Source: Acheta domesticus
Lineage: Eukaryota; Arthropoda; Insecta; Orthoptera; Gryllidae
DNA length: 64,000 nt
Reading direction: 5' to 3'
Assembly: GCA_031308135.1 (NCBI GenBank)
Contig: JAHLJT010000631.1
Location: 223,023,654 to 223,087,653, forward strand
Position numbers and translations under genes: made by a program. Shown one piece after another: positions 1,788-57,985 of this stretch (its first letter is position 1; each line of letters starts with the position of its first letter). A model generated the notes under the pieces. The model did not search any database. It was not told the DNA's origin and saw nothing but the letters and a program-made list of their open reading frames with translations.

Positions 1788-2591
1788 TTATTACTTTCTC
1801 GCTGCGGAGTAGAGAGAACGAATGGCGGCAAATCTCCTCTCCGTTCGTTCGTTCGTCCGTTCGTCCGTTCGTCCGTTCGTCCGTTCGTCCGTTCGTCCGT
1901 TCGTCCGTTCGTCCGTTCGTCCGTTCGTCCGTTCGTCCGTTCGTCCGTTCGTCCGTTCGTCCGTTCGTTCGTTCGTTCGTTCGTCCGTTCGTCCGTCCGC
2001 CCGTCCGTCCGTTCGTCCGTCCATCTGCGTGACCGTCTGTGAACAACGCTAGCGGCTAAACTATTCAGCCGATTTTCTCCATAATTGATATTTCCCAATC
2101 GATCTGACTGATGTAATAGTCCCTTGAATTTGAAACCGAAATTTAGCTTTGGAGGGTATATTACATGAAGCCCCTAGCACTTTTTCCAAATTTTCAAAAA
2201 AATAGTTTCAACGTTTTTGAATAAATTTGTGTTGTTGAATAGCGTGAAGGACATTTAAGAAAATGGTGAAGGTCTCATGTTCGTTGAAAACTGATTTTTC
2301 AAAAATTGCAAAAGATCAAACTTTTTGGGAGTCATCCTGTAACTAAAATATTAAAGATAGAGATTTTTTTCCCTTAATGAAAATTTCAAATATTCAAATT
2401 TTTTCGGCGTCTTCCTTCAACTACAATTAAGAGGATATTGATTTTTCCCTTAGTGAAATCTGTTCTTTTAAGAAAGATTTTGAAATAAGGTCACGAAGAA
2501 TTTTTCGAAAATTTGAGTACTTTTCTCGTAATTTTGCGTGAAAGTCCGGGAAAGAAAGTACGTGCTGTTTTAGCACCACCAGTTTTGAGTC
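1788..2591 (+). mobile_element. GTCY-seeded non-autonomous repeat family, copy 1 (rearranged)
   Basis: This is a diverged member of the family seen more completely at 25564-27569 and 53259-54847. The core after the microsatellite (about 2040-2110) has the family block GCTAGCGGCTAAAC followed by a CCGATTTTCTCC-type block, then AT-rich sequence with the recurrent 'ggcgtcttccttcaacta' segment. It ends at about 2587 in a small hairpin (GTGCT...AGCAC) followed by CACCAG|T. The other end (about 1788-1830, TTACTTTCTCGCTGC) is internally shortened and runs into an expanded microsatellite. No protein is encoded. Family membership is well supported by repeated blocks; the exact ends are approximate. 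Confidence 0.6.
1846..2034. repeat. (CGTTCGTC)n microsatellite
   Basis: About 190 bp of an octamer-like tandem CGTTCGTC, with CGTC/CGCC variants at its right end. It lies at the position where other family copies carry a short GACGGACAGACGG seed, next to the TGTGAACAACGCTAGCGG block. Open frames on both strands (PFVRSSVR-type and TDERTNGR-type) are a product of the repeat and not genes. Confidence 0.9.
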
Positions 2592-3199
2592 GTCCCGTTG
2601 AGTTTTTGGTTGAGCATAGATTCAAACTTAATCTGGTTCTAATTATTGTTTCGATAAAACAATGTAGCGGATGCATTCCGAAACAGACGCTGTCCTTAGG
2701 AGGAAATTTTATTGCGTTCAATACCTCCTAAAGCGAGCGTGCACTAGTGAATAGATTGCACTTGAGATGCTGGTTTGATTCTGCCGACAGAAGAAAGCGA
2801 CTTGATTGATACGTCTTGGAGAAACGATTCGTTTACTTCAGCACTAATCGCAATTACGCCTGAATCGCAATTATTGAGCACTTTCATCAACTGTAAAAAT
2901 CTACAGCTATACAGGACCTTTTTTCTGATATCAGTATTGCCATGTTGAGAAAAGAGAAAAAGTGAGTGGATCTGCCAAGAACTGGTTTCAAATCATGACT
3001 CGCCCTAAAGAGGTGAGAAAGTATCTTCGTTGTTTCGTTTTGCAAAGAGATTTGGTTCATTATTTTCCTTCCCTTCATCTTCCCATGGAAGCTAAAGAAC
3101 ACGCACAATCTCCTTTTATTTCCAAAAACTTGCATTACGAATGCGATCGCTCTTATTGGTTTGTCATTGCATCGTACACTTCTTTGGTACAAACCAACA
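2592..3199. other. Unassigned spacer between two facing repeat copies
   Basis: Roughly 600 bp lying between the hairpin-type ends of two inverted family members. It contains overlapping open frames of 99-118 codons on both strands (2887-3261) with no domain I recognise. Confidence 0.4.
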
Positions 3200-3949
3200 C
3201 TGGTGCTGCTAAAAAGCACGTACTTTCTCGCCCGTACTTCCATGCAAAATTACGCGACTAGTACTAAAATTTTAGAAAAGTTGTACATGACCTTATTTAA
3301 AAATCTATCTTTAAGTAACAGATTTGACTCAGAAAAAATTTCTATCTTCATAATTGTAGTTGCAGGAAGACGACGAAAAAAAATTTGGATGTTTGCAATT
3401 GTCGAAAATTCAAAGGTTTTAACGAAAATGAGACTTGCACCATTCTCTTAAACGTCTTTCACACTATCCAGTAACAAAATTCAATAAAAAAAGATGGAGC
3501 CATTTTATTTTAAAAGTTCGAAAATATCCCAGAGGCTTCATGTAAAGTACCTCCAAAATTAAAATTTCGGTTTCAAATTCAAGGGTCGCGACATCAGCCA
3601 GATCGACTGGGGAATATCAATTTTGGAGAAAATCGGCTGAACGGTTTAGCCGCTAGTGTTGTTCACTGACGGACGGGCAAAATGACGTTTTGCAGTAATT
3701 CGATTTTTCGGTATCAATGACCCAGAAAACATGGATTCTATTTCAAAAGAATACGTGACCCAGAATTCGTGGATTCTACGTCACGTATTAGATGATATTT
3801 TTTCTAAATTTAGCATCTGGATTTATGCACTGTTTCGTTACCTGGGCACTGTAATAAGAGATTTTTTGCCAAGAATTCGCCGTTTTTTCTTTGCACAGCA
3901 TTACATAACTTTATCTCTACTGCAAAAGCGGTAGCAAGAAAGTAAAAAG
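3200..3949 (-). mobile_element. GTCY-seeded repeat family, copy 2 (inverted relative to copy 1)
   Basis: Reads in the opposite direction to copy 1. It begins on the minus strand at about 3949 with a GAAAGTAAAAAG-type end and finishes at about 3200 with a hairpin-like sequence before CACCAG|T. The family core block (GGTTTAGCCGCTAGTG) is at about 3643-3662 and the unexpanded seed CTGACGGACGGG at about 3666-3678. The GCAGCATTACATAACTTT block shared with the other copies ends near 3912, about 40 bp inside the terminus. No coding capacity. Confidence 0.65.
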
Positions 3950-6615: not shown

Positions 6616-6619
6616 CGGT

Positions 6620-12667: not shown

Positions 12668-12839
12668 AATTTGGTAAATGGTTTTATCGACTCTTTCGTA
12701 ATCAGGACCCGGCAATGAATTTTTTTCTGCCAAAAATTCGCCGTTTTTTCGCGCAGCATTACATAACTTTCGCTATATTACGTATGTATACGGGAAAGTA
12801 TATATCCATATATACGTATGTATACGGGAAAGTAAAAAG
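12668..12839 (+). mobile_element. GTCY-seeded repeat family, terminal fragment
   Basis: About 170 bp matching one end of the family: GGTTTTATCGACTC, TTCGCCGTTTTTTCGCGCAG, CATTACATAACTTT and the end motif TATACGGGAAAGTA. The end motif occurs twice in tandem (about 12779-12800 and 12811-12835), so the terminus itself has been duplicated. Confidence 0.7.
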
Positions 12840-14985
12840 TGAAATAATTCTGTAGAGCATCGGCCTCTTCGGCATCACCCCAAAAGGCCTAACTTGATGT
12901 AGCTATATTATAATTTCATCATTAAGTATCCCTAGTTGTAATGATTATATTATATTTTAGAAATTAACGATCCAAAATGTAATCAAGCAATGTAAATAAT
13001 ACACATTTAATTGCCGTTCCTTTAAGTAAGAATCACGATCAGAGAACTCTGTGCAAAAAGATAATTCAGTAAATTCATTAAAAATTACATGTGAACTGGA
13101 AAAATCTCATTCGACGTATGTTGTTACATATCATACTTTTTTATGACAGTAAGCGTTTATATGTAGATTTAAACTGACCTACTTTTACCAAGATTAAAAT
13201 ACCAGTGCATTGATCAAAATGATTATATAAGTTAGTGTGTTATCTAATGTGCCTAGCAGCTATTAATTCTTCAAGGACTTTAACGATTAACTTTTCGTAT
13301 CTATACCTTTCCAAGAAGTAATTTTCCGCCGATTATCGACACCATAATTCTCGTTTCACACTTCTATTTTCTACAGCACGGCGTATCTATGGCATGTGAC
13401 TCCATGGCCTGTCTGTGGCATGGCCGGTTCCCTCTCTACAATCTTCTTCCCCGACTCCTCGAAGGCTTCACTACCTGCGAAAAAGCTGTTTACACCTCAC
13501 ATTATAATCGTCATCTTTTTTTCTTCGTTGCGTACTAACAAGCCTGATGACCACTTCATTCGATTAGTTTGGATGACTAAAAGTCGACCTATTTTTATAT
13601 TGATAAATTATTTAATAAATTACTTGAAAAAATGAAGATTTAGATGTAATAGCTGAAGAAGGATTAAATTGTCAAGGTAATCAGACCATGAAGAAAAATT
13701 TACAAAATGGTTTTCAAAGTTGATGAAACGGCCGCATAAAATGCAAGAAAGCGGAGTTTTACGGATTTGCAACGGGGACCGTGCGCCGTCAGGTCTTACT
13801 GCCTATTGTCACGCGCAGGAAATGAGTGGGTCACCGACACGTTAGAAAATATAAGAATTTACTTGAAAGGAACAACTGGGATTACACCGCACAAAATAAA
13901 TAACTGTAAGTAAGTTACAACAAAAAAATACAATGTATGCACTACACGAATCGATATAATGGACACTGTACGAATTGACGCTGTACGCACTATACGAAAC
14001 GGGGAGGGGGGAATCGATTAGTGTAGATACTTTCCCCCTGCAGCTCAACAAAATGCAGCACCTACAATTACTACGTATAATCTCATCACATTGTATTACA
14101 ATATTTTTTTTTGCAATATTTGTAAAAAAACTGATGGAGTGCACACTTAAAGTATGCTGTAAGTGGTAGGGAAAGGAGATAGGATAATATTTACCAAATC
14201 TCATACACACAGTAACTTTTCTGTTGTTTTCAAGGTTGCATACAAAATGTCATTAAAATTGGAATAAAACTGTATATGTGTATGAGAAATAAACACTTTT
14301 CTTTGTTTAAGATTATATACTGATTTTAAAACAGTATCCTACGTTATGCCCGAAAAAAACACTACCTAAATCTGTATAGCCATTTCAGAGATTACCCCGA
14401 ACAAACAGGCCATCAAAACTATCGTAAAAGCAACTTAAATGGTATTTATAAATATCATCTAAATAAGTATACAAGATTACAAGAAGCCAGTTGATTTGTC
14501 ATCACGGACAATCCAATTTTATTTACATACATTCCTCGAAGGAACTTGTCCCGAAGCTTCGTACCGCAACCCGCCCCCTGAAGCGCGATCGTTCCACGAT
14601 GCAGCAAGATCCGCACCGGGTGCGGCGCGGGAAGTGGCGCGCTAGACGCGCGGCGTCGAAATTCGCGGATCCTTTTGCACCGGAGCGTCAATTGTGAGTC
14701 AACGTTTGCTGACAGTTTTCCTCATTCGATAAGCAAAACACGCTTACTTCTATCATTGCCAATACTCTTAGTACGTTTTCTGAGCACAGTGCTTTTACAT
14801 TCTTCTACGATTTTCCTTCAAATTGTTAATATCGCTTATGGGAACGAAAAAAATGGATCCATGATTTGATCTAGAAAGGAAGAAGTACGGATAGTTTCTC
14901 ACATTGATGTCACAAAGGAAGAGACACGCTTTTGTATTTACTAGGATGATCAATGACTATTTCGATGAAATTTTGCACCTTATAA
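12840..14985. other. Unassigned AT-rich stretch with a short GC-rich island
   Basis: No gene recognised. A GC-rich patch at about 14545-14695 (GCGCGC-rich, followed by TTGTGAGTC) stands out from its AT-rich surroundings. It has a 68-78 codon open frame on each strand but no domain. Confidence 0.4.
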
Positions 14986-20454: not shown

Positions 20455-20650
20455 ATTTAAGGCCGCATCAACATTTAGGTCATTAGCTACCACTTTTGGG
20501 ATTATTGTTATGGTAACAGTGAAAATGATATGGTAATGATAGGAGGGAAAGAACGAACACAAATACAACCATGCCAGAAGTAGGACTCGAACCCGCAATC
20601 CTTCGATCCGAGATCGCTACTTCACTACTTCTTTAGCAATATTAACAACC
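20455..20650 (-). mobile_element. tRNA-derived SINE (family 1)
   Basis: On the minus strand there is an RNA polymerase III B-box-like GCGGGTTCGAGTCC (20584-20597), followed by a body that matches the plus-strand copy at 53045-53257 in several blocks: GGCATGGTTGTAT, TGTTCGT, ATCATTACCATA, and the end GCTAATGACCTA...GATGCGGCCTTAAAT. Two dispersed copies with the same tRNA-like head support a SINE. Confidence 0.75.
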
Positions 20651-25563: not shown

Positions 25564-27569
25564 CTTTTTACTTTCCCGTATACGTACGTATACACGGAAT
25601 GATATAGGTAGTGTAGGGAAAGTTATGTAATGCTGCGCGAAAAAATGACCAATTTTCGGCGGAAAAAATTAAATTGCTGGGCCGTGAAAACGAAAAAGTG
25701 GATAAAACCAGTTGCTAAATTAAGAAAAAAATCCCCTAACACGTGGTGTAGCCAGAAACCCTGTTATCTAGGTCCTTGATACCGAAAAACCAATTGAAAG
25801 GAAAACGTCCGTCTGTCCGTCCGTCTGTCCGTCCGTCTGTCCGTCCGTCTGTCCGTCCGTCTGTCCGTCCGTCTGTCCGTCCGTCTGTCCGTCCGTCTGT
25901 CCGTCCGTCTGTCCGTCCGTCTGTCCGTCCGTCTGTCCGTCCGTCTGTCCGTCCGTCTGTCCGTCCGTCTGTCCGTCCGTCTGTCCGTCCGTCTGTCCGT
26001 CCGTCTGTCCGTCCGTCTGTCCGTCCGTCTGTCCGTCCGTCTGTCCGTCCGTCTGTCCGTCCGTCTGTCCGTCCGTCTGTCCGTCCGTCTGTCCGTCCGT
26101 CTGTCCGTCCGTCTGTCCGTCCGTCTGTCCGTCCGTCTGTCCGTCCGTCTGTCCGTCCGTCTGTCCGTCCGTCTGTCCGTCCGTCTGTCCGTCCGTCTGT
26201 CCGTCCGTCTGTCCGTCCGTCTGTCCGTCCGTCTGTCCGTCTGTGAACACTGCTAGCGCCTAAACCATACGTACGATTTCTTCCAACATGGATATTCCCC
26301 GGTCAATCTAATTCTAGCCGAAGCTTTGAGATTTTGAAAACGATTCTTCAAAATTTGGAGGTACTTTATATGAAGCCCCCGGGGATTTTCAAAATTTTCT
26401 CAAAAACGGCTCCAAATTTTTTCTTTAAATTTCTTGTATGAATAGAGTAAAATACACTTATTAACATGGCATTGGTCCGATTTTCACGGATAACTCTGAA
26501 TTTTCGAAAATTGTGAAAGTTTTTTAACTTTGAATTTTTTTCGGCGTCTTTCTTCAACTACAAAATTGAAGATAGAGATTTTTTCTTCAAATAAAATTTG
26601 TTCTGCTTATTGAGTTCTTTCATAAAGGTCATGTAAATGTTTTTCAAAATTTTAGTACTTTTCACACAATATTGCGTGCAATACGTGCAATTTTAAAAAA
26701 TTACAAAAAATTAAAATTTTTTCTTTAAGCTTTTGGTAGGGATAGTGGTACATATACCCTATCAGATGGCATAAAAGCCATTGTGCTCTGTAGGTTGTTT
26801 TTTTCAAAAATTACAAAAATGTAAATGTTTTCACATTTTTCTCATGTCGATCATATTTACATTAGCGGCGCTGTTTTCACATTATTATATTTACGAGTAC
26901 ATGTGCTTTAAATAATGTCAAGCAAAGTTTCTCGAAAACACAATCGTTTTCTGTGAAAAGTAGCTATAATTTCGCATTTTCAGAAACGTTCAGACGCCAT
27001 TTTCTCATATATTGCTGCCATTTTTTTCTTGAAACTTTTGTAACAAATAGTGCCAATTACACTCTTTAGTATAGCGTAAAGTTGATTTTGAGTTATTTTT
27101 TTGTTTTTTCAAAAATTACATAATTGTAATTTTTTTGAAAGATCTCTCACATCTTTAATATGTACATTACCAGCAATTTGTAAACATTATTATATTTGTG
27201 AGTGTAAGTCCTTCAAATAACTTCAAATGAAGTATTTTAAAAACTCAAAAATCTTCTTTGAAAATGAGCTTCAAATTTTGCACTTTTAGTAGCGGTAAAA
27301 CACCATTTTCTCTTAAACGACACATAAAATTTAAAAGAAAATTGCCATTTATGAGTAGGTTTTTGTGTCCTTTAATATTCTAAAATTAATGTTTCCGTTC
27401 TACCAATAGGAAACCGAAAAATTAAGAAAATGACAAAGAAATGTACTTTTGGCGGTGATAGATGGCAGCTGGCAAGAAAGAGTTTGTGGCAATTCCGAAT
27501 AGCTAGCGAAAACCCAAGGAAATAGAAAACTAATAAGGAAAAGTCTGTGCCATTCTGTAGCACCACTAG
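25564..27569 (+). mobile_element. GTCY-seeded repeat family, copy B (seed expanded)
   Basis: Full-length by comparison with 53259-54847, in opposite orientation. The left end is CTTTTTACTTTCCCGTATAC with the palindrome GTATACGTACGTATAC. Then come TTATGTAATGCTGCGCGA, a GGCCGTGAAAACGAAAAAGT block, the microsatellite (25807-26243), a TGTGAACACTGCTAGCGC block, and AT-rich sequence with the repeated 'gcgtctttcttcaactac' and 'agtgtaagtccttcaaataa' segments. The right end is TTCTGTAGCACCACTAG|TTT at 27555-27569. Without the microsatellite its length (~1.57 kb) equals that of copy A. Non-coding. The (GTCY)n seed and T-flanked end suggest a Helentron-associated/DINE-1-like element. Confidence 0.75.
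25807..26243. repeat. (GTCCGTCTGTCC)n microsatellite, about 36 units
   Basis: A nearly pure 12-bp tandem repeat of GTCCGTCTGTCC, about 435 bp, of the (GTCY)n type. It lies exactly at the place where copy A has only ACAGACGGACAGACGGACGG. The ~150-codon frames on both strands (PSVR and TDGQ repeats) are artefacts of a 12-bp period. Confidence 0.95.
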
Positions 27570-27657
27570 TTTAACGTTGGTAGACAATTGTTCAGTAAGA
27601 AAGACCAATTAATCATTTCCTTTATCAAGTTTGATTATTATTATTGATTATATTTGA

Positions 27658-36611: not shown

Positions 36612-37079
36612 TTTGAATGATTTGAAGTTTTTGTATATTTGATTTTGCTGCATTTGACCATATTGGACAAGCATAAGTTAAAGTAAGTCTAATAATTGAA
36701 GTGTACATTCATTTAGCAGTTTTAATACGAAGAATTGAGTTATTATTTATGAGAGAATTAAGTTTATGTATTTTAATGGTAGTTTTTTGTATAACACTTT
36801 TAATGTGAATTTTCCAGTTCAGTTTTGTGTCCAGATAGAGACCTAAATATTTAATAGATGAAGAGGAAGAAAGCCAAGGAATAGGAGTGTTATGAATTAG
36901 AAGGGGAGGAGGGGTTATTGGCTTACATAACGTAAATATTTTGGCTTGGCATTTATCCATATTGATTTTGATTCTCCAGTTGTTGGTCCACACCGAATAA
37001 CGATTAAGATCTTTTTGAAGTTTATTTCTGGCAAGAAGAATATTAGTGTGTGAGTTAATAAGTGCTGTATCATCTGCAA
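36612..37079 (-). pseudogene. Jockey ORF2 piece 3 (RT from the ADD box through the thumb)
   Basis: The minus-strand frame reads VADDTALINSHTN (catalytic ADD at about 37066-37075), then WTNNWRIKINMDKCQAKIF, SSIKYLGLYLDTKLNWKIHI, and, after a TGA/TAA-type stop at about 36710, RLTLTYACPIWSNAAK and KLQIIQ at the CR1 junction. Piece 4 continues with NKFFRKILDAPW. Piece 2 ends SDIPKFASFKLAL just before the ADD box. At least one stop codon makes it dead. Confidence 0.85.
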
Positions 37080-38170
37080 CTAGTGGTGCTACAGAATGGC
37101 ACAGACTTTCCCGTATTAGTTTTCTATTTTCTTGGGTCTTCGCTAGCTATTCGGAATTGCCACATTCTCTTTCTTGCCAGCTACCATCTATCACCGCCAA
37201 AAGTACATTTTTTTGTCATTTTCTTAATTTTTCGGTTTCCTATTGGTAGAACGGAAACATTAATTTTAGAATATTAAAGAACACAAAAACCGAGCCGTAA
37301 ATGGCAATTTTCTTTTAAAAATTATGTGCCGTTTAAAAGAAAATGGCGTTTTAGCGCTACTAAAAATGCGAAATTTGAAGCTCATTTTCACAGACAACTT
37401 TTGAGTTTTCAAAATACTTGCCTTGAAGTTATTTGAAGCACTTACACTAACAAACATGATAATCTTTACAAATTGCGGATAATATGCATATAATGAAGAT
37501 GTGAGAGATCTTTAAAAAATTTTACATTTATATAATTTTTGAAAAAACAAAAAAATAACTCAAAATAACCTCTTATTAACCACTCATTAAAGAGTGTAAT
37601 TATCACTATCTGTTACAAAAGTTTCAAGAAAAACTTTGCAGCCATATATGAGAAAATGGCGTTTAAGCATTTCTGAAAATGCCGAAATTTGAGCTACTTT
37701 TCACAGAAAACGGTAGCGTTTTCGACAAACTTTACTTGACATTATTTAAAGCATATATACTCATAAATGTAATAATGTGAAAAAATCGCCTATAATGTAA
37801 ATATTAACGTCGTGAGAGACAAGTAAAAAAATTTACATTTTTGTAATATTTGAAAAAAGAACCGATAGAGCAATATGGCTTTTATGTTATCTGATAGAGT
37901 ATATTTACCACTATCCCTACCAAAAGTTTAGAGAAAAAATTTTGAGCCGTTTTTGAGAAAATCTTGTTTTTGTAATTTTTTAATGTTGCACATATTGCAC
38001 GCAATATTGCACGAAAACTACTAAAATTTTGATAAACATTTACATGAAATTTATGAAAGAACTCAATATGCAGAACAAATTTTATTTGAAGAAAAAATCT
38101 CTATCTTTAATTTTGTAGCTGGAGAAAGACGCCGAAAAAAATTCAAACTTTCAAAATTCATAATTCAAAA
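37080..38170 (-). mobile_element. GTCY-seeded repeat family, copy C (truncated, inside Jockey)
   Basis: Matches the first ~1.09 kb of copy A (53259 onward) in order: CTAGTGGTGCTACAGAATGG, TCGGAATTGCCACATTCTCT, the AT-rich body and the GACGCCGAAAAAAATTC block, then stops before the microsatellite seed and the palindromic end. It divides the Jockey RT immediately 5' of the ADD codons. The Jockey sequences on both sides join as ...GCTCTTT^TTGCAGAT..., so the insertion was between two T residues. Confidence 0.8.
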
Positions 38171-39077: not shown

Positions 39078-40622
39078 TGTAGCGGTACGCTATTTTTAAT
39101 ACTTTTTAAATTTCACAAATAACTGTCGATGTGAACCGTCCACCTCCCGCCGCCGCCAGCCGGGTCGGCGCGCCCCCTCCGCTAATGGAAGGGATGACAG
39201 CACGCGCTCCTCTAAAGTTTATGGCCATCGTCCGCGAGTCGACCCTCATCCCGTCACGCACCCGGGCGCCGAAGAAGAGATTAGAGACGTGTGCTGATCC
39301 CGCCGTTCCGGGTATCATGCGCACTAAGTACCCAGACCGTCCTTCGCAGTTTTCTCCAGGGGTCCCAACGGACATTCCGCGTACCCTTTACTGACCTACT
39401 TCCGAAGTCAGACGGAGAGCGTTTTCCAGACAGAGATAGGGCTACGGAAAATTCCTAGAATCATCGGACCTGATTGGCCGAGGACAAAATTACGGCGTAG
39501 TAGCACTTAGCCAATCAGGGGCAAAATTCCGTGGGGTGGGAGCGATTTTGGGGCACTTTTGAATTTTCGGGGTGGCGGAACGAGGAGACCTCCAGGCTAG
39601 CGGCGTAGGGGAGAGCATCACTTCTTCTTGTTCGATTGAGCTGGGGGGGGCGAGCGCCGCGGAGCGAGTAACAGCTCCGGCGCCGCGTTCGAGGGCTACG
39701 GGTACTCGACTTGTCTTGGGTGGCGAGCGCCGCGGAGTAAGCGATAGCTCCGGCGCCGCGTTCGAGGGAGAATTATTATTTTGGGACTTAGTTCGTGGAC
39801 ACTGAGCTCTGCCGTGGGCAGTGACCGGTGACTAGTTTTCTCCGAGATTCGTGATCGTGATAACTCCAGAGAACTTTCCGTGAGAACTGCTAATTTGTGT
39901 GAACGGAATTCGCGATCATTCACGATCCGGGCCAGCTGACCGTCGCCGCCGCCGCCGTCACCGCCGCAGCCGCTGTCGCCGCCGCCGCTCCTTTGGTAGC
40001 TACTGTGGAAGGACGTTTCTCGGCCTGGCAGGGCCATCTCAGCCGCCGACCCAGACGGAGAGAAGCCGCGACCCCCGCCGCCGACGCCGAGGGCCGCCTA
40101 CACGCCGCCCCATTCAGGCATAAACTTCGGTCAACGACCGCCAAAGAACTATTGTGCATTGCTGTGCCGCGCTTAGGCACTTGTTTCCTCATTATTGTCA
40201 GCCAGAAGGCGAATGGCCTAGAGTTTGTTGGGGCCTGTAAAGGAATTTAATTGTAATTCTCGTTCTTTCTCTTTTTTTTTTAGATTTAAGTTTTATCTCA
40301 TTTTTTTTTCGTTTCTAACTGAGCTCATCAGGTAGGGCCTTTCTTAACTCTTTGAATCACTGTAACTTCCCCGGCCTATTATTAGGCGGGAATAAACCTT
40401 TTTATTTGCTTTACCAACCACTGAATTGTTTCTGTAGTTAGCAAACGCCTTACGACTCCTTCCATCCGAGTTAGATTCTAAGCAGGTGACAAAGTTGGCC
40501 GACTGAGCTAGGCCCGGGCCGCCCTCGTTGACTTCGGCGCACACCCACGCCGCCGGAGCTCGACGCTGTGGTTGACAATCGACGCCACCGTGTGGCTCGA
40601 TAACGAACCCATGGGTGTGACA
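39078..40622 (+). repeat. 5' LTR of the gypsy element
   Basis: TG...CA bounded, 1545 bp. GC-rich central part with CGCCGC runs (about 39940-39990), polyadenylation signal AATAAA at 40391-40396. Open frames in it are duplicated exactly in the other LTR and look non-coding. Differences from the 3' LTR seen by eye: 10 versus 11 T in the run after TTCTTTCTC, and CCCATGGG versus CCTTGGG near the end. Confidence 0.95.
39466..39520 (+). promoter_or_regulatory. Inverted pair of CCAAT-type boxes in the LTR
   Basis: CCTGATTGGCCGAGG at about 39469 and AGCCAATCAGGGG at about 39508 form an inverted pair with 26 bp between. CCAAT boxes bind NF-Y in animals, so this may be part of the LTR promoter. The same pair is in the 3' LTR near 44192-44243. 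Confidence 0.4.
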
Positions 40623-40624
40623 AT

Positions 40625-40642
40625 TGGCTTTCCCAAGTGGGG
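40625..40642 (+). other. Candidate primer-binding site
   Basis: TGGCTTTCCCAAGTGGGG, two bases inside the 5' LTR, starts with TGG as expected for pairing with the CCA end of a tRNA. I cannot name the tRNA. Confidence 0.45.
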
Positions 40643-40757
40643 CTCGATAGTACCACAGATACCCCAGTAAAACGCCCTAGAATCAATTCATGTCTCAGTG
40701 CCATTTTGATAATAGTCGCAGAACCTAATTTTCTATTACTGTTGTTTTTTTAAATGG

Positions 40758-42359
40758 ATGGAAGGACGCTGCTACGAAAAGAACAATTTGTGGTCTGGTA
40801 ATGATATTATTTATTATTGTATTTTGTGTATAAGTGTTATTGTTTTGTGCTTTGTGTGTTGTGAATACCGTGTGCGCGTTTCACGCAAAACAGCCAAAAT
40901 GCTGGACGAATCAGGCGTCGATGTGGCGGGAGAGAGCAGTTCGGGGGAACAGCCTGCGCCCGAGATCACCCTAAGTGAACTTATGCGAGTTCTCACGAAG
41001 CAAATCTCGGAGAGTAGCGAAAGACATGCGAGTCAGATTGCAGAAAGTAGTAAGAATTTAAAACTAGAATTGATGAACCAAATTTCAGAGAGTAGCGAGA
41101 GACATGCGAGACAAATCTCAGAAAGTAATAAAAGACATGAGGAAAGATTTGACCGGCTAGACAGTTGTTTGGTTGACCAGGCCGCGAAACTAGAAAATTT
41201 GGAGGCGAAATTTGATCACAAAATAGGAACTTTGCAGAATCAGTTAGAGGGTAGATGTGGGAAAATTGAAACTAGCGTGGAGAACTTAGGCCAGGAGTTA
41301 GAAAGTTCTAGGGCCGAGGCAAGGGAAAATATTATCAAAATCGAATCAGAAATTAGTCAGAAACTTCAGGCATGTGACAGGAAAGTGGAAGCTTATTGCG
41401 AATCAATTACTGAGAATATTGCCGAGGTTAAAACAGAAATGAACGGCAAATTCACGAAAATTGAAACCAAACTCAGCACGGAAGTGAGTGAAATCCATGG
41501 CAAATTCGAGAAATTAGGAGTTATTGAAGGGGAGAATATCAGGGACAGGGAAGAAAAGTTAAAGAAAGAAATAGACAAGAACTTAATAAAATTAGTAAGG
41601 GAGGAAATCGAGAAAGAGAAAGAGAACGGTCCTATTGCGAATTCATCGGGAGGATCAGGGCTTAGATTCTCGTGGGCCCCTCCACAAAATTTATGTTTTT
41701 GGGGAAAAGCAGATGAAAATCCAAAGGTTTTTCTCGACCGTGCCGAGAATTACATGGATTTGACGAAGGCAGTACCGTCCAAATTAAAACCTAAATTCAT
41801 GCAGGAACTTCTACGCGGAAATGCTGCCCATTGGCTCACTGCGCTTGCACCATTCCCACAAACGTACGAAGAGTTTCGTACCAAGTTCCTTGCGCGTTAC
41901 TGGAACGAACAAACGCGTTACGAATTCGAGAGAAAGATTCTAGAGAACAGGTGGGACAAAAGACGCGACCAATCTTACCTTGACTACGCCATGGAGAAAA
42001 TCTCCGCTATTAAATTGTGTGACCCCATGATAGAGGATAAAAAGGTCATTTGGCTTTTGACCGCGCATTACCCTACCTATGTGCAAAATTTAATTAATAG
42101 TGTAGGATGTGAGGACCTCGATCGATTCCAGGAGCTGCTCGCTCAATTTGATAGGACTCGGGTAATTTCTTATGAGGATAATTGGGAGCGAAACCAAGGG
42201 AACGGCCAGAACCGACCGTCATGGCGTCGCGATGACCGGAATCGGGGGAACGCTGCAAATGAGCGACGCCCACCACCGGATTCTAATGAGAATCGAGGCG
42301 GGAACGCTGGGGACAGAAACGGTCAGCATGATTCCACTAGACAGAGCCCGTTAAATTAG
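40758..42359 (+). CDS. Gypsy-type Gag polyprotein
   Basis: A structural protein that would pack the element RNA. The frame is open from an ATG at 40758, but its first 47 codons are hydrophobic (IIYYCILCISVIVLCFVCC) and unlike Gag; the ATG at 40899 (GCCAAAATGCTGGACG) is a better start. Residues ~75-260 from the first ATG are a long heptad-like, Glu/Lys-rich coiled coil with SESSERHA repeats, then a retrotransposon Gag/capsid domain with FLDRAENYMDL, LLRGNAAHWLTAL, EFRTKFLARYW and YLDYAMEKISAI. The C-terminus is Arg/Asn/Gly-rich (RRDDRNRGN) and basic and has no CCHC zinc knuckle. The stop TAG is at 42357-42359. The pol frame, one base back, is open from 42341, so a -1 shift would have to take place within about 16 nt. 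Confidence 0.85.
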   Translation: MEGRCYEKNNLWSGNDIIYYCILCISVIVLCFVCCEYRVRVSRKTAKMLDESGVDVAGESSSGEQPAPEITLSELMRVLTKQISESSERHASQIAESSKNLKLELMNQISESSERHARQISESNKRHEERFDRLDSCLVDQAAKLENLEAKFDHKIGTLQNQLEGRCGKIETSVENLGQELESSRAEARENIIKIESEISQKLQACDRKVEAYCESITENIAEVKTEMNGKFTKIETKLSTEVSEIHGKFEKLGVIEGENIRDREEKLKKEIDKNLIKLVREEIEKEKENGPIANSSGGSGLRFSWAPPQNLCFWGKADENPKVFLDRAENYMDLTKAVPSKLKPKFMQELLRGNAAHWLTALAPFPQTYEEFRTKFLARYWNEQTRYEFERKILENRWDKRRDQSYLDYAMEKISAIKLCDPMIEDKKVIWLLTAHYPTYVQNLINSVGCEDLDRFQELLAQFDRTRVISYEDNWERNQGNGQNRPSWRRDDRNRGNAANERRPPPDSNENRGGNAGDRNGQHDSTRQSPLN

Positions 42360-43525
42360 AACCGTTCGAGCCAGTAAGGTACCGGGGTCCCGAACGAGTT
42401 GTGTCAGAGGTACCAATTTCCAAGGTAGTGTCAGTGAACTACGCATTTCATGACTTAAATGACGATGCGAATGAACATGTGAAGGAACTCGCACGGAAGT
42501 GCCCAGTAATCGAGTTTCTCACAGGAAATTTTAATGTACGCGCTCTAGTAGATACCGGCAGTGAGGTTAGCGCAATTTCAAAGAAATTTTACTCGCAACT
42601 AATAAGTGAGCGCATTCCAGTGCCAACTTTGCCTACGGGTAAATGCTTCGTTGTAGGAATCGGGAAGAAGAAAAGTAAGCCGATTTTCATGCAGGCCTTA
42701 ATCTCACTAAATTTTCGGGAAGTTTCATTCGACGTGCCATGTTTAGTCATAGAAGACTTGAATTATGATGTTATTCTAGGGGTAGATTTCTTGCGGGAAA
42801 ATAACGGGATAGTGGATTTTTCCAGGAATATTGTGAGTTTCGGTGAGGGTAGGGAAATTGAGATACAAGATGACGAGGACAGACCGGACATTAGCATTTC
42901 ATGTGGGTTTGGGGATTCGGGGGATGACGTGAGTGGAGTCATTAACAAGTGCTTGCTAGGAAATGATTCACTAAATGACCACGAGCGCCATCAGCTGCAG
43001 CAATTGCTCTGCAAATACGGCAACGTTTTCGATCGTCCCGTGCATCCAATAAAAGACTTTTGCTTTCGGATCCAGGTCACCGATGACTCACCCTTTAAAG
43101 TGAAAAATTACCCTATTCCGCAGTCCATTAGGGGGGAAGTCGATGAAACGATCAAAAACATGATTAGTGAAGGCATTATTGAGAGGTCAGTCACGGCCTA
43201 CTTAAACCCGATTGTTGTTGTCAAGAAGAAAGACGGGAAAGTTAGAATTTGTTTAGATGCACGACGAATCAACGAAGTTACAGTCCCAGAAAACGAGGCA
43301 CCTCAAAACATAGACGAAATTCTTTGGAAATTCAACAAAACTAAAAATTTTTCGGCCTTAGATTTTTCGAGTTCTTATTGGCAGATTTCCATCCACCCCG
43401 ACGATAGGAAGTTCACGGGATTCTTATACAACGGCTTAACCTACGTCTGGAAACGTATGCCTCCTGCGGGACGAAAACGGCCTTCCAGCCGGAAAATTCA
43501 ATTTTTTCAACCTCCGTCCGTTTAA
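42341..43525 (+). pseudogene. Gypsy-type Pol: aspartic protease and the start of RT, then deleted
   Basis: Open in the -1 frame relative to gag. Visible: an aspartic protease with ALVDTGSEVSAIS (catalytic DTG at about 42551-42559) and YDVILGVDFL flap/dimer region; then the RT fingers with IRGEVDETIKNMI, GIIERSVTAYLNPIVVVKKK, VRICLDARRINEV and palm motif FSALDFSSSYWQI (catalytic Asp). Soon after FLYNGLTYVWKRMP (about 43460) homology stops and the frame runs into a short unrelated tail ending at 43525. The second catalytic box (YxDD), RNase H and integrase are missing. The rest to the 3' LTR (43526-43800) is non-coding. Thus the copy cannot transpose alone, although its LTRs look young. Confidence 0.9.
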
Positions 43526-43800
43526 AGAGTAGAAGTCACTGACAACCTCTGCACACGATTCGGAGTACCTTGGGCTCGCGGTACAGTTCATGTTCTTCTT
43601 TGTTAAATTTTGTAGGGTTAATTAGAATTAAGATCTAGTAGTAGTTGCAATTTTCTTTGTTACTGTAGAATGATTTTAATGTTAGGCATCGCCATGTTAT
43701 TTTTTTGAAATTTCATCACGACGAGAAAAAAAATTCTCATTTCCAAATCTCAATTTTTCAAAGCCCCAATTTTTTTTCTCTATTCGGAGGGGAGGGCCAA
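43526..43800 (+). other. Gypsy 3' non-coding region with polypurine tract
   Basis: Non-coding. The last bases before the 3' LTR, GGAGGGGAGGG at 43787-43797 followed by CCAA, form the polypurine tract for plus-strand priming. Confidence 0.8.
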
Positions 43801-45345
43801 TGTAGCGGTACGCTATTTTTAATACTTTTTAAATTTCACAAATAACTGTCGATGTGAACCGTCCACCTCCCGCCGCCGCCAGCCGGGTCGGCGCGCCCCC
43901 TCCGCTAATGGAAGGGATGACAGCACGCGCTCCTCTAAAGTTTATGGCCATCGTCCGCGAGTCGACCCTCATCCCGTCACGCACCCGGGCGCCGAAGAAG
44001 AGATTAGAGACGTGTGCTGATCCCGCCGTTCCGGGTATCATGCGCACTAAGTACCCAGACCGTCCTTCGCAGTTTTCTCCAGGGGTCCCAACGGACATTC
44101 CGCGTACCCTTTACTGACCTACTTCCGAAGTCAGACGGAGAGCGTTTTCCAGACAGAGATAGGGCTACGGAAAATTCCTAGAATCATCGGACCTGATTGG
44201 CCGAGGACAAAATTACGGCGTAGTAGCACTTAGCCAATCAGGGGCAAAATTCCGTGGGGTGGGAGCGATTTTGGGGCACTTTTGAATTTTCGGGGTGGCG
44301 GAACGAGGAGACCTCCAGGCTAGCGGCGTAGGGGAGAGCATCACTTCTTCTTGTTCGATTGAGCTGGGGGGGGCGAGCGCCGCGGAGCGAGTAACAGCTC
44401 CGGCGCCGCGTTCGAGGGCTACGGGTACTCGACTTGTCTTGGGTGGCGAGCGCCGCGGAGTAAGCGATAGCTCCGGCGCCGCGTTCGAGGGAGAATTATT
44501 ATTTTGGGACTTAGTTCGTGGACACTGAGCTCTGCCGTGGGCAGTGACCGGTGACTAGTTTTCTCCGAGATTCGTGATCGTGATAACTCCAGAGAACTTT
44601 CCGTGAGAACTGCTAATTTGTGTGAACGGAATTCGCGATCATTCACGATCCGGGCCAGCTGACCGTCGCCGCCGCCGCCGTCACCGCCGCAGCCGCTGTC
44701 GCCGCCGCCGCTCCTTTGGTAGCTACTGTGGAAGGACGTTTCTCGGCCTGGCAGGGCCATCTCAGCCGCCGACCCAGACGGAGAGAAGCCGCGACCCCCG
44801 CCGCCGACGCCGAGGGCCGCCTACACGCCGCCCCATTCAGGCATAAACTTCGGTCAACGACCGCCAAAGAACTATTGTGCATTGCTGTGCCGCGCTTAGG
44901 CACTTGTTTCCTCATTATTGTCAGCCAGAAGGCGAATGGCCTAGAGTTTGTTGGGGCCTGTAAAGGAATTTAATTGTAATTCTCGTTCTTTCTCTTTTTT
45001 TTTTTAGATTTAAGTTTTATCTCATTTTTTTTTCGTTTCTAACTGAGCTCATCAGGTAGGGCCTTTCTTAACTCTTTGAATCACTGTAACTTCCCCGGCC
45101 TATTATTAGGCGGGAATAAACCTTTTTATTTGCTTTACCAACCACTGAATTGTTTCTGTAGTTAGCAAACGCCTTACGACTCCTTCCATCCGAGTTAGAT
45201 TCTAAGCAGGTGACAAAGTTGGCCGACTGAGCTAGGCCCGGGCCGCCCTCGTTGACTTCGGCGCACACCCACGCCGCCGGAGCTCGACGCTGTGGTTGAC
45301 AATCGACGCCACCGTGTGGCTCGATAACGAACCTTGGGTGTGACA
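43801..45345 (+). repeat. 3' LTR of the gypsy element
   Basis: 1545 bp, TGTAGCGG...TGTGACA; near-identical to 39078-40622 in every line compared by eye. AATAAA at 45115-45120 would serve for the transcript end. Followed by ATAA, the target-site duplicate. Confidence 0.95.
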
Positions 45346-46450
45346 ATAAAGTAATTTAATTGTAGACCATAATTGTTTAGATTGCGGGTGTATTTGTTGA
45401 AGAATGTTTTGTTATTGATGAAATTTAAATAAATGTATTCTAGACTTTATTATTCGTGAAATTTTGTTAAGTTTAGATTTAATATCGGGACGTCGAGTTA
45501 TTTGCCAATAACGACGTAAAGTGTGTTTAGTTTTGATTAGATTAAGAATACGAAAGGGTAGTGATTTATAGGGGCTAGGGGGAAATTTAGGTATAACGCT
45601 CAGATGAGAGTAAAGTGTGTTATGTATTGTAGTGGTAAAATAAGATAGGTAATTGTCAATATCATTTGTAGATTGTATATTATGAGGAAACTGAATATTA
45701 TTTTCAATGTCGTGTTGAAAGTCAGGCCACCTAATTTTTTAAAAAACAGGTGTGAAGGTGGAAGAAGAAATATTAAAGGAAAAAGATAAAGTAATAAGAA
45801 CTGGAAAATGGTCAGAATCTAATTCAGGAAGCACATTTTGTATTATAGGGAAAGGAAAATTTTGTGAAAGAATAATATCAAGAATATCAGGAATAATATT
45901 ATTATTATATGAATAGTAAGTAGGTTCAGAGGGGGAGTGTATTTGTACATTATTAGAAACGAGAAAATTATGTAATTTAATTCCGTTAGGGTTGGTAGTA
46001 TTACAACCCCAAATTTGATGTTTACAGTTTATATCGCCAAGAAGAATGTTTTTGTTTATATTGTTAAAAATGTTTTTAAATGTTACGAGAGGAAATGTGT
46101 ATTTTGGGGGTTTGTAGGCAACTGAAAAATAGTAATCAAGATTATTTATATTGATTATTAAAGAAAGGATTTCAAGAGAAGGATGATTGTTAAATTGGGA
46201 TGAATAGTGTTTAATAAACTGTTTAATGAGTATAGCAACTCCCCCGGAGGCCACTGAATTAAATCTGTCAAAACGATAAATTTTATAGTTCGAGATATAG
46301 AATTTGTCGGTTGGGAGTAAATGTGTCTCAGTTATGAAAGCAATGTGTACATTATGAGTGTTTAGAAAATGTTCGAGAGTATGTTGTTGTCTTTTCAAAC
46401 CATTAGCATTCCAGTTGAGAAGTGTTATTTGATTGGCCGTATAGTAATTG
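45346..46450 (-). pseudogene. Jockey ORF2 piece 1 (APE endonuclease and linker)
   Basis: An endonuclease that would nick the target DNA. The minus strand reads QITLLNWNANGLKRQQHTLE from about 46430, then IAFITETHLLP (catalytic Glu), GGVAILIKQF, VAYKPPKYTFPL, ILLGDINCKHQIWGC, IPDILDIIL and LDSDHFPVLITL (SDH motif), ending with a stop near 45740. The linker continues further with RRYWQITRRPDIKSKLNKIS up to the gypsy junction. Collinear with piece 2. Upstream frames have stops and no ORF1 is recognised, so the 5' end is truncated. Confidence 0.85.
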
Positions 46451-53044: not shown

Positions 53045-53257
53045 GAGACGACCCGGTGATCGAGTTTGCTAAGGCAGTAATGTTGAAGCGATCTCGGACC
53101 GAAGGGTTCGAGTCCCGCCTCGAGCATGGTTGTATGTGTTCGTCCTTTCACCCCCTATCATCACCATACCTTTACACCCTCATAGAAACCATAACCATAC
53201 TAAAATCCAATGGTGACCTAGCTAATGACCTAGAAGTTGATGCGACCTTAAATTAAA
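53045..53257 (+). mobile_element. tRNA-derived SINE (family 1)
   Basis: B-box-like GGGTTCGAGTCCC at 53104-53116, preceded by a tRNA-like head with CGATCTCGGACCGAAG, followed by GCATGGTTGTATGTGTTCG and an end GCTAATGACC...GATGCGACCTTAAATTAAA. Same family as 20455-20650. The next repeat (53259) begins immediately after its A-rich tail. Confidence 0.75.
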
Positions 53258-53258
53258 A

Positions 53259-54847
53259 CTAGTGGTGCTACAGAATGGCACAGACTTTCCCGTATTAGTT
53301 TTCTATTTTCTTGGGTCTTCGCTAGCTATTCGGAATTGCCACATACTCTTTCTTGCCAGCTACCATCTATCATCGCCAAAAGTACATTTTTTTGTCATTT
53401 TCTTAATTTTTCGGTTTCCTATTGGTAGAACAGAAACATTAATTTTAGAATATTAAAGAACACAAAAACCTAGCCGTAAATAGCAATTTTCTTTTAAAAA
53501 TTATGTGCCGTTTAACAGAAAATGGCTTTTTAGCACTACTAAAAATGCGAAATTTGAAGCTCATTTTCACAGAAAATTTTTGAGTTTTCAAAATACTTTA
53601 TTTGAAGTTATTTGAAGCACTTACACTCACAAATATAATCATCTTTACAAAATGTGCATATTAAAGATGTGAGAGATCTTTCAAAAAATTTACATTTATA
53701 TAATTTTTGAAAAAAAACAAAAAAACTCAAAATAAACTTCACGCTATACTAATGAGTGTAATTAGCACTATCCGTTACAAAAGTTTCAAGAAAAAAATTG
53801 CAGCCATATACGAGAAAATGACGTTTGAGCATTTCTGAAAATGCCGAAATTTGAGCTACTTTTCACAGAAAACAGTAGTGTTTTCGAGAAACTTTACTTA
53901 GCATTATTTAAAGCATATATACTCGTAAATATAATAATGTAAAAAAATCGCCGATAATGTAAATATTAACGACGTGAGAGACAAGTAAAAAAATTTACAT
54001 TTTGGTAATTTTTGAAAAAATCAACCGATAGACCAAAATGGCTTTTATGTCATTGATAGAGTACATTTACCACTATCCCTACCAAAAGTTTAAAGAAAAA
54101 ATTTGGAGCCGTTATTGAGAAAATTTTGTTTTTGTAATTTTTTAAAATTGCACATATTGCACGCAATATTGCACGAAAACTACCAAAATTGTGAAAAACA
54201 TTTACATGACCTTTATTAAAGAACTCAATATGCAGAACAAATTTTATTTAAAGAAAAAATCTCTATCTTCAATTTTGTAGTTGGAAAAAGACGCCGAAAA
54301 AAATTCAAACTTTCACAATTTTCGAAAATTCAGAGCTGTACGTGAAAATCGGACCTATGCCATGTTAAAAAGTGTATTTTCCTCTATTCATACAAGAAAT
54401 TTTAAGAAAAAATTTGGAGCCGTTTTTGAGAAAATGTTGAAAATCCCCGGGGGGCTTCATATAAAGTACCCCCAAATTTTAAAGAATCTTTTTCAAAATC
54501 ACAAAGCTTCGACTAGAATCAGATCGACTGGGGAATATCAATTTTGAAGAAAATCGACCGAACGGTTTAGGCGCTAGCGTTGACCACAGACGGACAGACG
54601 GACGGAATGCCGTCAATCGATTTTTAAGTATAAAGAAGCAACAAATCATGGATTTTGACCACACCACGAGATAGAGGATTTTTTTTCTTAATTTAGCAAC
54701 TGGTTTTATGCACTTATTCGTTTTCACGGCCCAGCAATTAATTTTTTTCCGCCGAAAAGTGGCCATTTTTTCGCGCAGCATTACATAACTTTCCCTATAC
54801 TACGTATATCACTCCGTGTATACGTACGTATACGGGAAAGTAAAAAA
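53259..54847 (+). mobile_element. GTCY-seeded repeat family, copy A (reference copy)
   Basis: The most regular copy, 1.59 kb. Order: CTAGTGGTGCTACAGAATGG end; long AT-rich body with no coding frame; core CGACCGAACGGTTTAGGCGC (about 54556-54575); short seed ACAGACGGACAGACGGACGG (54587-54606); TTTCACGGCCCAGCAATTAA; GCGCAGCATTACATAACTTT; palindromic end GTATACGTACGTATACGGG and AAAGTAAAAAAG. Copy B has the same ends and length apart from the seed expansion. Confidence 0.75.
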
Positions 54848-54891
54848 GAACGAGAATGAAGATAAAATTAAGATCGATTTTTCAGACCGTT

Positions 54892-55140: not shown

Positions 55141-55159
55141 ACACTCTCCGTATAATAGT

Positions 55160-55248: not shown

Positions 55249-55303
<55 letters not shown>

Positions 55304-55430
55304 TATATACACACACACATGTAGGGTCAAATCTTTCAACAATAATCAAATTATATTTTTATTCAAGTGTTGGATGTTTTGTTGGTGCTTATTCTTAACG
55401 AAAGATATTACATTTTACAAGTCTTCGTCC
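55160..55430. repeat. Palindrome: ~90-bp inverted arms around an (AT)n/(AC)n core
   Basis: The left arm 55162-55248 (TTGTAAAATGTAATATCTTT ... GATTATTGTTGAAAG) is nearly the reverse complement of 55330-55425. Between them are (AT)n at about 55250-55298 and (AC)n at 55310-55318. The arms differ at about six places. Confidence 0.9.
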
Positions 55431-56879
55431 GTATTAATTTGCAAAAAAATGTATAAATTTGACGGAAATCTGAGTTTAATGAGAGTTCAAAATGTTAGCC
55501 ACAGCCATTCCGATTACAAATCGGCGGTGCACACAGGAAAGGGACACGTTTCGAAAATCATTTTGTAGAATTGTTTTATTGTGAGCGGTGGCGTATATTT
55601 CACACACAAAGGCGAAGTGTTAGAGGCTGTTTTGTAAACTACTGTAAAGCTTTTTTGTTGGTAAAAATTTATCACATTCTAAAATTTCTTACAAAATGAC
55701 GATTGCTTAGATGAATCATTTTTCTGGAGCACAAATTAAGTAAGGAAATTACAGAAATACAAACGTTTATTTTTAAGTTCCCAAACGACGTCTAAAATTA
55801 AAATTATTTTGTATGCTACGGAGCAAATTTCCTTACTGACACCAATGCATAACTACTTATAGACGTTTCACATTTTCTTTACTTAACTGCGAAACAGTAC
55901 TTTTAATATCATAATTCAATATACAACCACGACCACTTCCAACTTGACCATGCGCGCTATCTATGAGCAAGATAATCAGACCACTTGATCAGAGGGAAAA
56001 AGTTGGCTGCTAGCGCTGCTCTGCAGTTCAAGTACGAAATCGAACCCTATAACATAACTTGGAATTTGACTTGCAAATGGTTTGAATATTCTCTTCTGAA
56101 CGCCGCAAGACTTGAAAGAAATGTTTAAGTCACATAAAAATATACATGGCCTACTCCCAGGCGGGAAGTAGAGAGAATAACGGTATTGGAGGTTTTCATT
56201 TGCAAAGAAAGGTGAGGTCTGAAATGCTCAAAGACTTCATAACATCTGCCACCCGCATAGTGAATATATTATTGTTCATTTGAAGCGAGCTGAATAAACG
56301 AATCACAAGTGCACCAACTCATTGTAAACTGGGATCATTTCAAAAGTAATAAAAAGTGCAAGGCGTTCTCGACGAGTACGTAAGCTTAGCTCACCTATTC
56401 TAAGTCGAATAAGTAAATTTCCGAATAATATTTTGTTAATATTTTTTGTTGGTTGTTTTTTTTTTGTATTGCAACTAAAACATTCATTAAGAAAGAGATT
56501 CTAGAAGCGTTAGAGGTCCCATAAGAACTTTCTAATTTCAAAACAAATTCGCTTTTTGTGTTAAGTTTTGTGAAAAATAAGAATATTGAAATGTTTAGGG
56601 TGAAAACAGATTATTAATATTATTATAGATAATTTTTATATTGCGTCTTACAAGGGTGAAAGAGAAATATATTATCTAGTTAAATTCATTAGTATTACGA
56701 GTGGAGTAAAAAGTCATTATAAAATATCTACTATCATAAATGAAATGATGAAGAAAAATAGCCAGTTAGAATATACTGCAGTTACGTTAAGCAACTTATT
56801 ATTTAAGGGAGGTATTTAAGGGAGTTTGAATTTGTACTTCGGAAATCAGGATTGGATTATTGTATTTTGGTTGTAAATT
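55431..56879. other. Unassigned stretch
   Basis: No gene, RNA or named repeat recognised. Confidence 0.4.
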
Positions 56880-57985
56880 TGCATTTTCCGAAAACTCAGA
56901 CAGTCCATCGAAAATGAGACATGCACCACTCTTTTAAGAGTTCTTGGATGGAAATTCGAAATTTGCATGCAAAAAAATTGAAGAAAAATTTGAAGCGGTC
57001 TTTGAGAAAGTTTCATTTTATAAATTGTGTGAATTTTAAGCACAAATTACCCCAACACTACAATTTAAAAAAATCGCACATTATTTTTAGAGCTTATTTT
57101 TTAGAATAGATTTTATTTAAAGCAATAATCTCTACCTTCAATTTTGTAGTTTTGCTGTAAAAAGTTTGCAATTTTCGAAAATACAGAGTTCGCATATAAG
57201 ACTAGCATACAAACGAGACTAGCACCAATTTCTTACCGCCTTTTGATAGATGCGAAAAGAAAATTTAAAGAAAAAATGGGGCCGTTGTTTGAGAAAAAGA
57301 TGTTTAAAAGATTGACTATATTTCATCCAAAATTACGTTTGCACCCAAAACCACTCATGTTTTCTAAAATTGTACATGGCATTATTTCAAGACGTCTTTA
57401 AAGAACGGTTTCAATCAGGAAAATCAAACTCAACTTCGATATTTAACTTCGATATTTTAGTTGTAGCAAGACGCCGAAACTTCTGAACTTTTGAAAGTTT
57501 CGAAAGATCACGGATATCAACGAAAATAAGAACTGCACCATTCTCTTGAGCGTTATTTACGTTACCCAAAGGACATAAAATGTGGAGCCAATTTTGATAA
57601 AATTATGAAAATGTGCTTGAGGCTTCATAATAAAAGGGGCTCACAATAAAAATTTTCGTTTGTATACTTAAATCGATCATTGAATATCAATTTTGGAGAA
57701 AATGGACTGAAGTGAACAGTTTTGTAGAAAATAGCTAGCTTTGACTACATGCAGATAGGCAGACAGAAGGACGGACGGAAAGACATGGATAAATAAACGT
57801 TGTTTTGCTATCAGTCGGTTTTCGGTCAGTATCCATAAAAAAGTGGCGTCTGATTATCCAATTTGACAGGGAAAGCAATTTACTATGCACAGAAACTAGA
57901 TTTGTCCAATTATTCGTTACCAGGGCCACTCAATAACTTTACTGACGAAAACTCGTTGTTTCTCCTGCCGAGGATTACAATACTT
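56880..57985 (+). mobile_element. GTCY-seeded repeat family, diverged copy E
   Basis: Same orientation as copy A. Recognisable are a GACGCCGAAACTTCTGAACT block, GAGGCTTCATAATAAAAGG, TGAATATCAATTTTGGAGAA, a degenerate seed (GGCAGACAGAAGGACGGACG, 57750-57770) and the terminal GGCCACTCAATAACTTTACT region. Both ends are eroded; limits are approximate. Confidence 0.55.

Follow-up and report, generated by a model that had tools for sequence, protein, structure and literature searches.

The 64,000-nucleotide stretch of contig JAHLJT010000631.1 of Acheta domesticus (positions 223,023,654 to 223,087,653, forward strand), hereafter the window, contains seven segments, starting at 1788, 3200, 12668, 25564, 37080, 53259 and 56880, that a self-blastn of the window joins into one related family. 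Its hallmark is a short internal tract of GTCY units, the seed, at whose place two of the copies carry long microsatellites. We interpret the family as non-autonomous Helentron-type rolling-circle elements (HINEs, of the DINE-1 type), and assign this interpretation a probability of about 0.9. Alignment of copies A to E in one orientation separates a long subfamily (A, B and C) from a short one (D and E), and the family occupies 11.8% of the window. This percentage was computed from the rough copy limits given below, of which the 5′ limits of A, C and D are approximate.

1784..2583, plus strand: copy E, short subfamily; both ends kept, without block A1, expanded 8-mer array at the seed; 3′ end at 2552-2583, then T
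1840..2020, plus strand: array of E, 22.6 units of TCCGTTCG, 95% matches
2023..2181, plus strand: block A2 of E, adjoining the seed
3199..3935, minus strand: copy D, short subfamily; both ends kept, unexpanded degenerate seed
3522..3680, minus strand: block A2 and degenerate seed of D
12668..12842, minus strand: fragment F, the 5′ terminal block alone, with the 5′ end motif twice and without seed
25565..27570, plus strand: copy B, long subfamily; both ends kept, carries the 436-bp array
25565..25625, plus strand: 5′ end of B, with T-run, ACTTTCCCGTATAC as subterminal inverted repeat (subTIR), palindrome and inverted repeat GGGAAAGT
25806..26241, plus strand: array of B, 36.3 perfect units of CGTCCGTCTGTC
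26226..26389, plus strand: block A2 of B
27537..27570, plus strand: 3′ end of B, with subTIR, short hairpin GTGC..GCAC and CACCACTAGT, then T
37079..38170, minus strand: copy C, long subfamily; 3′ end undamaged, 5′ portion lost along with the seed
53258..54848, minus strand: copy A, long subfamily; both ends kept, unexpanded seed
53517..54439, minus strand: central tandem repeats of A, about 3 units of 300-310 bp, about 68% alike
54442..54604, minus strand: block A2 of A, including the seed
54588..54603, minus strand: unexpanded seed of A, GTCCGTCTGTCCGTCT
56878..57790, minus strand: copy G, degenerate; at 57619-57764 it matches A2 weakly (E 1e-7), and the adjoining GACGGACGGA seed is decayed

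In the self-blastn, 26224-27572 aligns to 54606-53256 with 87.9% identity over 1371 columns, and 37078-38158 to 53257-54320 with 91.6%. The flanks are unlike at every copy compared and the copies do not, therefore, derive from one segmental duplication, in agreement with an earlier, sequence-only reading of the window that had proposed a repeat family at these places. At 20455, examined as a possible paralogous empty site of copy A, a similar repeat was found on one side only. Copy C sits within the reverse transcriptase of a long interspersed nuclear element (LINE), between the LALF and ADDTA codons; it has a correct 3′ end and starts internally to the element at a T-run of the target, which reflects either 5′ truncation on insertion or a later T-to-T deletion. 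The family copies appear to be without coding capacity. The frames of at least 120 amino acids (stop to stop) that overlap them are those of the two arrays, those of the LINE where it borders C, and two that run over the start of D (2887-3249 and 3017-3451).

Array B (25806-26241; 436 bp, 36.3 units of a 12-mer, 100% matches) and array E (1840-2020; 181 bp of the 8-mer, 95% matches) are the two top-scoring short-period arrays of the window, the third being an (ATT)n array of 116 bp. Both align at the position of the seed in A and D, as had been claimed for the longest microsatellites of the window, while C and F have no such position. Within the window, runs of at least three GTCY units are confined to 25807-26242 and 54588-54603, both inside family copies, and none arose in 200 Markov-1 sequences; array E alternates GTTC with GTCC and is not strict GTCY. 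In A, the 5′ end is about 250 bp away from the seed, and element blocks adjoin the seed on either side in A, B and D. The unexpanded seed that had been described at two places is present at 54588-54603, but the one at 3666 is degenerate (an 8-bp GTCY frame, GTCCGTCA) and does not match the proposed 13-mer exactly. Likewise, the flanking CTAGCG block, said to be the same in all copies, is missing together with the seed from C (37080) and F (12668).

The genome assembly comprises 2.33 Gb in 6,511 contigs. An exact 15-mer next to the seed, GCTAGCGCCTAAACC, occurs 8,653 + 8,684 = 17,337 times on the two strands, the reversed control not once. We examined 40 of the first 41 listed places of this 15-mer, which lie on small contigs in contig order (C152 was omitted for its proximity to a contig end). 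At least one GTCY unit is present at the seed in 38 of these 40 copies and at least two units (at least 8 bp) in 37; the modal seed length is 16 bp (16/40), 14 copies reach at least 24 bp, and the maximum is 104 bp. Element sequence also precedes the tract in most of them, as viewed over 110 bp upstream. Near-identical copies of the A subfamily carry tracts of 8, 16, 24, 32 or 40 bp, and these steps of mostly 8 bp are what slippage by two units would be expected to give. The family covers 15% of 87 kb of flanks, a figure biased to element-rich places.

The reverse approach, starting from the arrays, leads to the same position. The pattern (GTCY)8 yields 79,389 + 70,548 = 149,937 overlapping hits, whereas its reversal yields 3,846 + 2,509 = 6,355. 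Seventeen distinct arrays underlie the first 100 hits listed, which follow contig order and lie on small contigs (C3 to C251); the interrupted arrays of C98 and C132 are counted once each. Block A2 was found at the array in all of the 15 whose surroundings were inspected, with a variant array of about 120 bp between A2 and the array in C108 and a partial A2 match in C18:11231 and C132; the remaining two (C173 and C251) adjoin exact 15-mer cores. All 17 sampled arrays thus lie at the seed, in line with the enrichment there that the sequence-only reading had expected genome-wide. If the listed ratio holds, the genome would contain, very roughly and by extrapolation from small contigs, 25,000 (GTCY)8 arrays.

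With the seed side taken as 5′, the element is organized as a T-run, a subTIR ACTTTCCCGTATAC with a palindrome, the inverted repeat GGGAAAGT, a roughly 200-bp block, the GTCY seed and block A2, followed by central repeats of about 300-310 bp, a subTIR TACGGGAAAGT, the small putative hairpin GTGC..GCAC and the end CACCACTAGT. A 12-bp subTIR, ACTTTCCCGTAT, is found at both ends of A, and imperfect TACTTTCTCGC-like pairs are found in D and E. In A, the inverted repeat ACTTTCCC..GGGAAAGT lies beside the 5′ subTIR and the 5′ stretch folds at -26.7 kcal/mol (RNA parameters); the 5′ hairpins of D (-9.5) and E (-8.3) are weaker. The central repeat units of about 300-310 bp are restricted to A, B and C, with none in D and E. 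The 5′ end motif is doubled in fragment F (12780-12842) and in locus L248 (1449-1550), at spacings of about 34 and 49 bp, respectively, a picture suggestive of a double start of copying.

Further termini were collected in a search with copy A as query (4,494 first-look candidates, 40 scored, 44 matches), from which 30 loci were fetched best first, so that this set is biased toward close copies. Across the window and 29 of these loci (L238, being copy A itself, was excluded), a T directly follows 36 of the 37 recognizable 3′ ends, against a background T frequency of 0.32, and all 30 exact-motif ends have a T-run of 2-7 ahead of the 5′ motif. Insertion is thus at T-rich or TT sites, and one nested copy, whose flanks join in frame when read by eye, suggests insertion without target modification. 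Interspersed copies, fixed termini, the T after nearly every 3′ end, a GTCY tract at a fixed place and its length steps of mostly 8 bp among near-identical copies together lead to the HINE interpretation. Canonical Helitrons, whose 3′ end is CTRR, were considered and rejected; they lack subTIRs and have a Rep with GLPHxH, whereas the ends of the family are CTAGT with subTIRs.

The 3′ end itself is informative. Ten of the 30 best loci, copy A included, match copy A through to its 3′ end, and 20 leave it earlier, at position 1590 of its 1604 in 11 copies, 1587 in four, 1533 in three, and 1544 and 1522 in one each. In the 15 copies of the 1590 and 1587 groups, the break falls in the loop of the first hairpin, with the consequent loss of its right arm. 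A second 3′ end lies further on, always on the same side, in 17 of the 20 early-leaving copies. The two largest groups each share an extra stretch, of about 787 and 924 bp, that ends in CTAATACGGGAAAGTAAGTGCTGTTGTAGCACCACTAGT followed by T; this exact second end with its T occurs 2,167 times in the genome, the control 0 times. Copying likely read through past a damaged stop to the next one, and the resulting composite was then amplified. Because the extensions are shared, the 17 copies probably represent a few events and subsequent copying, and not 17 events. The combination of a damaged first end and an intact second one suggests that the stop signal is the 3′ end. That ends can be bypassed is an idea already familiar from Helitrons, and one that Thomas et al. 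suggested for Helentrons.

An autonomous partner was sought by way of protein domains. DUF6570, which we take to accompany Helentron-like proteins and which served as a lead only, gave 10 matches from 14 candidates. One of these, on contig C2131, is a 683-residue frame accompanied by a Rep frame with YERVEFQMRGSPHEH, two helicase frames and an apurinic/apyrimidinic (AP) endonuclease frame; the Pfam assignments are PF14214 (Helitron_like_N), PF05970 (PIF1, one frame above and one below the curated cut-off), PF14529 (Exo_endo_phos_2) and DUF6570. The coding element therefore combines the Rep motif (F/Y)xR(V/I)ExQxRGSPHxH with PIF1 and an AP endonuclease, the serine in GSPHxH and a fused AP endonuclease being marks of Helentrons according to Thomas et al. 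The element has broken frames and, in its endonuclease part, an inserted family copy with 97% likeness to A; the fusion of Rep and endonuclease is, therefore, deduced from order and strand. This is the nested copy whose flanks join in frame by eye, ILDI being followed by DAWYKRCDVLIFSET with or without an ACT that may come from one side or the other; an automatic join gave no stop-free frame, with the right flank meeting a later stop. Beyond the endonuclease lie, in the same direction, stretches with about 75% similarity to the HINE central repeats; they represent perhaps a common 3′ region, perhaps an old insertion. For the partner that had been looked for, with Rep and helicase domains and the same ends, the genome thus offers a candidate, a Helentron-type Rep/helicase/endonuclease that is broken and low in copy.

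A search with PF14214 (150 scored of 674 candidates) led to other elements, which were rejected as partners: nine long frames among 12 cut-out loci carry the canonical Helitron motif 2, RGLPHAH or RGLPHCH. Open frames in these loci (L268-L279 and the 150 scored of 674) reach 1,477 residues, and the canonical Helitron frames examined look younger than the broken Helentron.

Lepidopteran MITEs (miniature inverted-repeat transposable elements) with hitchhiking (GTCY)n, reportedly described by Coates in 2011, are mobile GTCY microsatellites as here. A structural comparison with published rolling-circle elements reveals further parallels. As in DINE-1/INE-1/mini-me of Drosophila (PMC2374699), there are subTIRs near both ends with an inverted repeat beside the 5′ one, a GTCY microsatellite in the 5′ block, a hairpin (putative in the present family) after the 3′ subTIR and a TT preference. 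DINE-1 is described there with a GTCY-rich microsatellite within block A, central repeats, which are species-specific and likewise present here, and a hairpin stem of 7-11 bp; the subTIR of our family is its own, and the likeness is one of described structure. The end structure, the T preference and a Helentron-type Rep/helicase/endonuclease in the genome are shared with HINEs and Helentrons of mite, Culex and Drosophila (PMC4067079); unlike those Helentrons, ours is broken, and the residue intervening between Y and R before motif 2 is an E, absent from the list in that paper. The Pacific oyster Cg_HINE (PMC7492417) has the same succession of 5′ subTIR, complementary repeat, microsatellite, central repeats, 3′ subTIR and palindrome, and several Cg_HINEs are reported to carry GTCY, GTCC or GTCK tracts; by contrast with the arrays of up to 436 bp seen here, the oyster microsatellites are described as short and eroded. 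Helitron2_Cv of Calliphora (PMC3630058) is similar by description, with 11-bp subTIRs, a GTCY-rich protosatellite and a hairpin with a 9-bp stem, but counts 41 copies in 600 kb of a fly. The suggestion that the family is a relative of DINE-1/mini-me or a convergent case is thereby supported, most structural features being present and the long arrays of the sample lying at the seed. Literature searches, which were not species-directed and therefore weak, found no published account of this family.

Under the HINE interpretation, a Helentron Rep/helicase/endonuclease would have moved the copies by copying a single strand, starting at the 5′ end and finishing at the 3′ end, and every new copy would bring a short GTCY seed. 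Replication slippage after insertion would then lengthen the seed in some copies into the long arrays; where the 3′ end was damaged, copying would continue to the next Helentron-type 3′ end, giving composites that multiplied. Several observations weigh against this interpretation. The 3′ hairpin has a stem of 4-5 bp, against 7-11 bp in DINE-1, and for A the fold program favours another pairing. Copy D, the single 3′ end without a following T, is followed by G. Among the 20 early-leaving copies, three (L250, L263 and L264) have no second 3′ end, and the five outside the two hairpin-loop groups have lost the entire 3′ end, beyond a hairpin arm. An intact Helentron Rep was not recovered among 42 genome matches (81 candidates, all scored), none of which other than the query covers more than 40% without a stop. 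A comparison of inverted words of 11-14 bases between two fetched flanks of the C2131 Helentron returned only one AT-rich match and thus no evidence of shared HINE ends; its true ends may lie outside these flanks. Finally, tract length and divergence do not correlate within a subfamily (rho -0.12, n = 12; rho -0.03, n = 16), not even after addition of the best-hit loci (rho 0.19, n = 39).

This last result answers the suggestion, made earlier, to plot seed length against divergence. The correlations leave out copies more than 25% from the consensus (in the contig-order sample, 9 of 21 in the GTT class and 2 of 18 in the AT class; in the enlarged GTT set, 9 of 48), and one contig-order copy, L280, fits neither class. 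Between subfamilies, tracts of the B-like class (median 5.7% from consensus) are longer than those of the A-like class (1.3%), with medians of 32 and 16 (18 and 21 copies; p 0.0012), a contrast that is one comparison only and in which the starting seeds may have differed. Array B is perfect over 36 units, yet A and B are 12% apart, and the array must, therefore, have grown or been homogenized after the A/B split. Expansion of the tract after insertion is well supported; steady growth with age is not.

The most probable of the rival explanations, while still unlikely, concerns the role of the seed and takes it as a cis-acting, iteron-like site needed for transposition and held by selection, instead of a passive substrate for slippage. 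It is consistent with the retention of a tract of at least 8 bp in 37 of the 40 contig-order copies, with GTCY tracts at the corresponding position in elements of flies and oysters, and with the higher conservation of seed and A2 among ten diverged copies (mean identity 0.65-0.76 vs 0.46-0.60 further on). Selection of these ten copies with an A2 profile, however, biases the comparison, and downstream some of them pass into unrelated sequence; young copies with 4-8 bp also exist, though perhaps as recent losses. Much less probable is that the copies are ordinary cut-and-paste MITEs with subterminal inverted repeats that carry the GTCY tract as a passenger. Comparable elements of Lepidoptera with hitchhiking (GTCY)n have reportedly been published as MITEs, but the asymmetric ends, the T after 36 of 37 3′ ends and, in 17 of 30 copies, a second 3′ end past a damaged first one, without exception on the same side, argue against this. 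Segmental duplication or an assembly artefact is more improbable still: array B has the perfect regularity that could result from collapse or over-polishing, but differing flanks among the copies compared exclude duplication for the family, and thousands of exact cores are found on both strands, with long arrays on many contigs. Insertion of the element into existing GTCY microsatellites can be set aside, since, although some transposons reportedly do target microsatellites, the tract lies inside the element, flanked by element blocks in A, B and D.

Outside this genome, exact matches to CACAGACGGACAGACGGACGGA, ATATCAATTTTGGAGAAAATCGG and GTTCACAGACGGACAGACGG were not found in viral contigs. 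The pattern (GTCY)6 is present in the viral and prokaryote collections (at least 120 and at least 117 stretches among the matches listed), and blastn of 237 such loci found no element sequence past the GTCY tract, bar three weak short matches of L201 (E 0.004-0.047); these collections thus yielded no relative of the family. In many of the bacterial and viral contigs (L001-L237), (GTCY)n is followed by a GTCAAG-like stretch with a second TGTCAAG about 30 bp on, as seen by eye and uncounted, hinting at a separate recurrent bacterial repeat.

Two further features were noted in the window. A retrotransposon at 39076-45347, whose direct terminal repeats of about 1,550 bp (39076-40624 and 43799-45347) are 99.8% alike, seems to be nested in a LINE with minus-strand frames from 46461 to 36709, the same LINE that holds copy C, and a perfect tandem duplication of 273-274 bp occupies 60850-61397. 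Among the relatives of one LINE protein of the window that bear an organism name, the best come from Periplaneta americana (identity of 54-55% across 61-67% of the query), which makes the attribution to an insect plausible.

Elements of this kind are already known, and what is unusual here is the scale together with the exceptionless link between arrays and family within the sample. It is possible, although doubtful, that the GTCY seed is an iteron-like binding site of the Helentron Rep kept in the HINEs of flies, oysters and this genome. If so, microsatellite birth would be the by-product of an essential origin-side repeat, and the (GTCY)n arrays of many animals would be footprints of one ancient transposition system. 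The composite copies constitute a natural test of where rolling-circle copying stops. One family accounts for every long GTCY array in the sample, and its thousands of replicate loci, of varied age and seed length, make microsatellite birth measurable in this genome.

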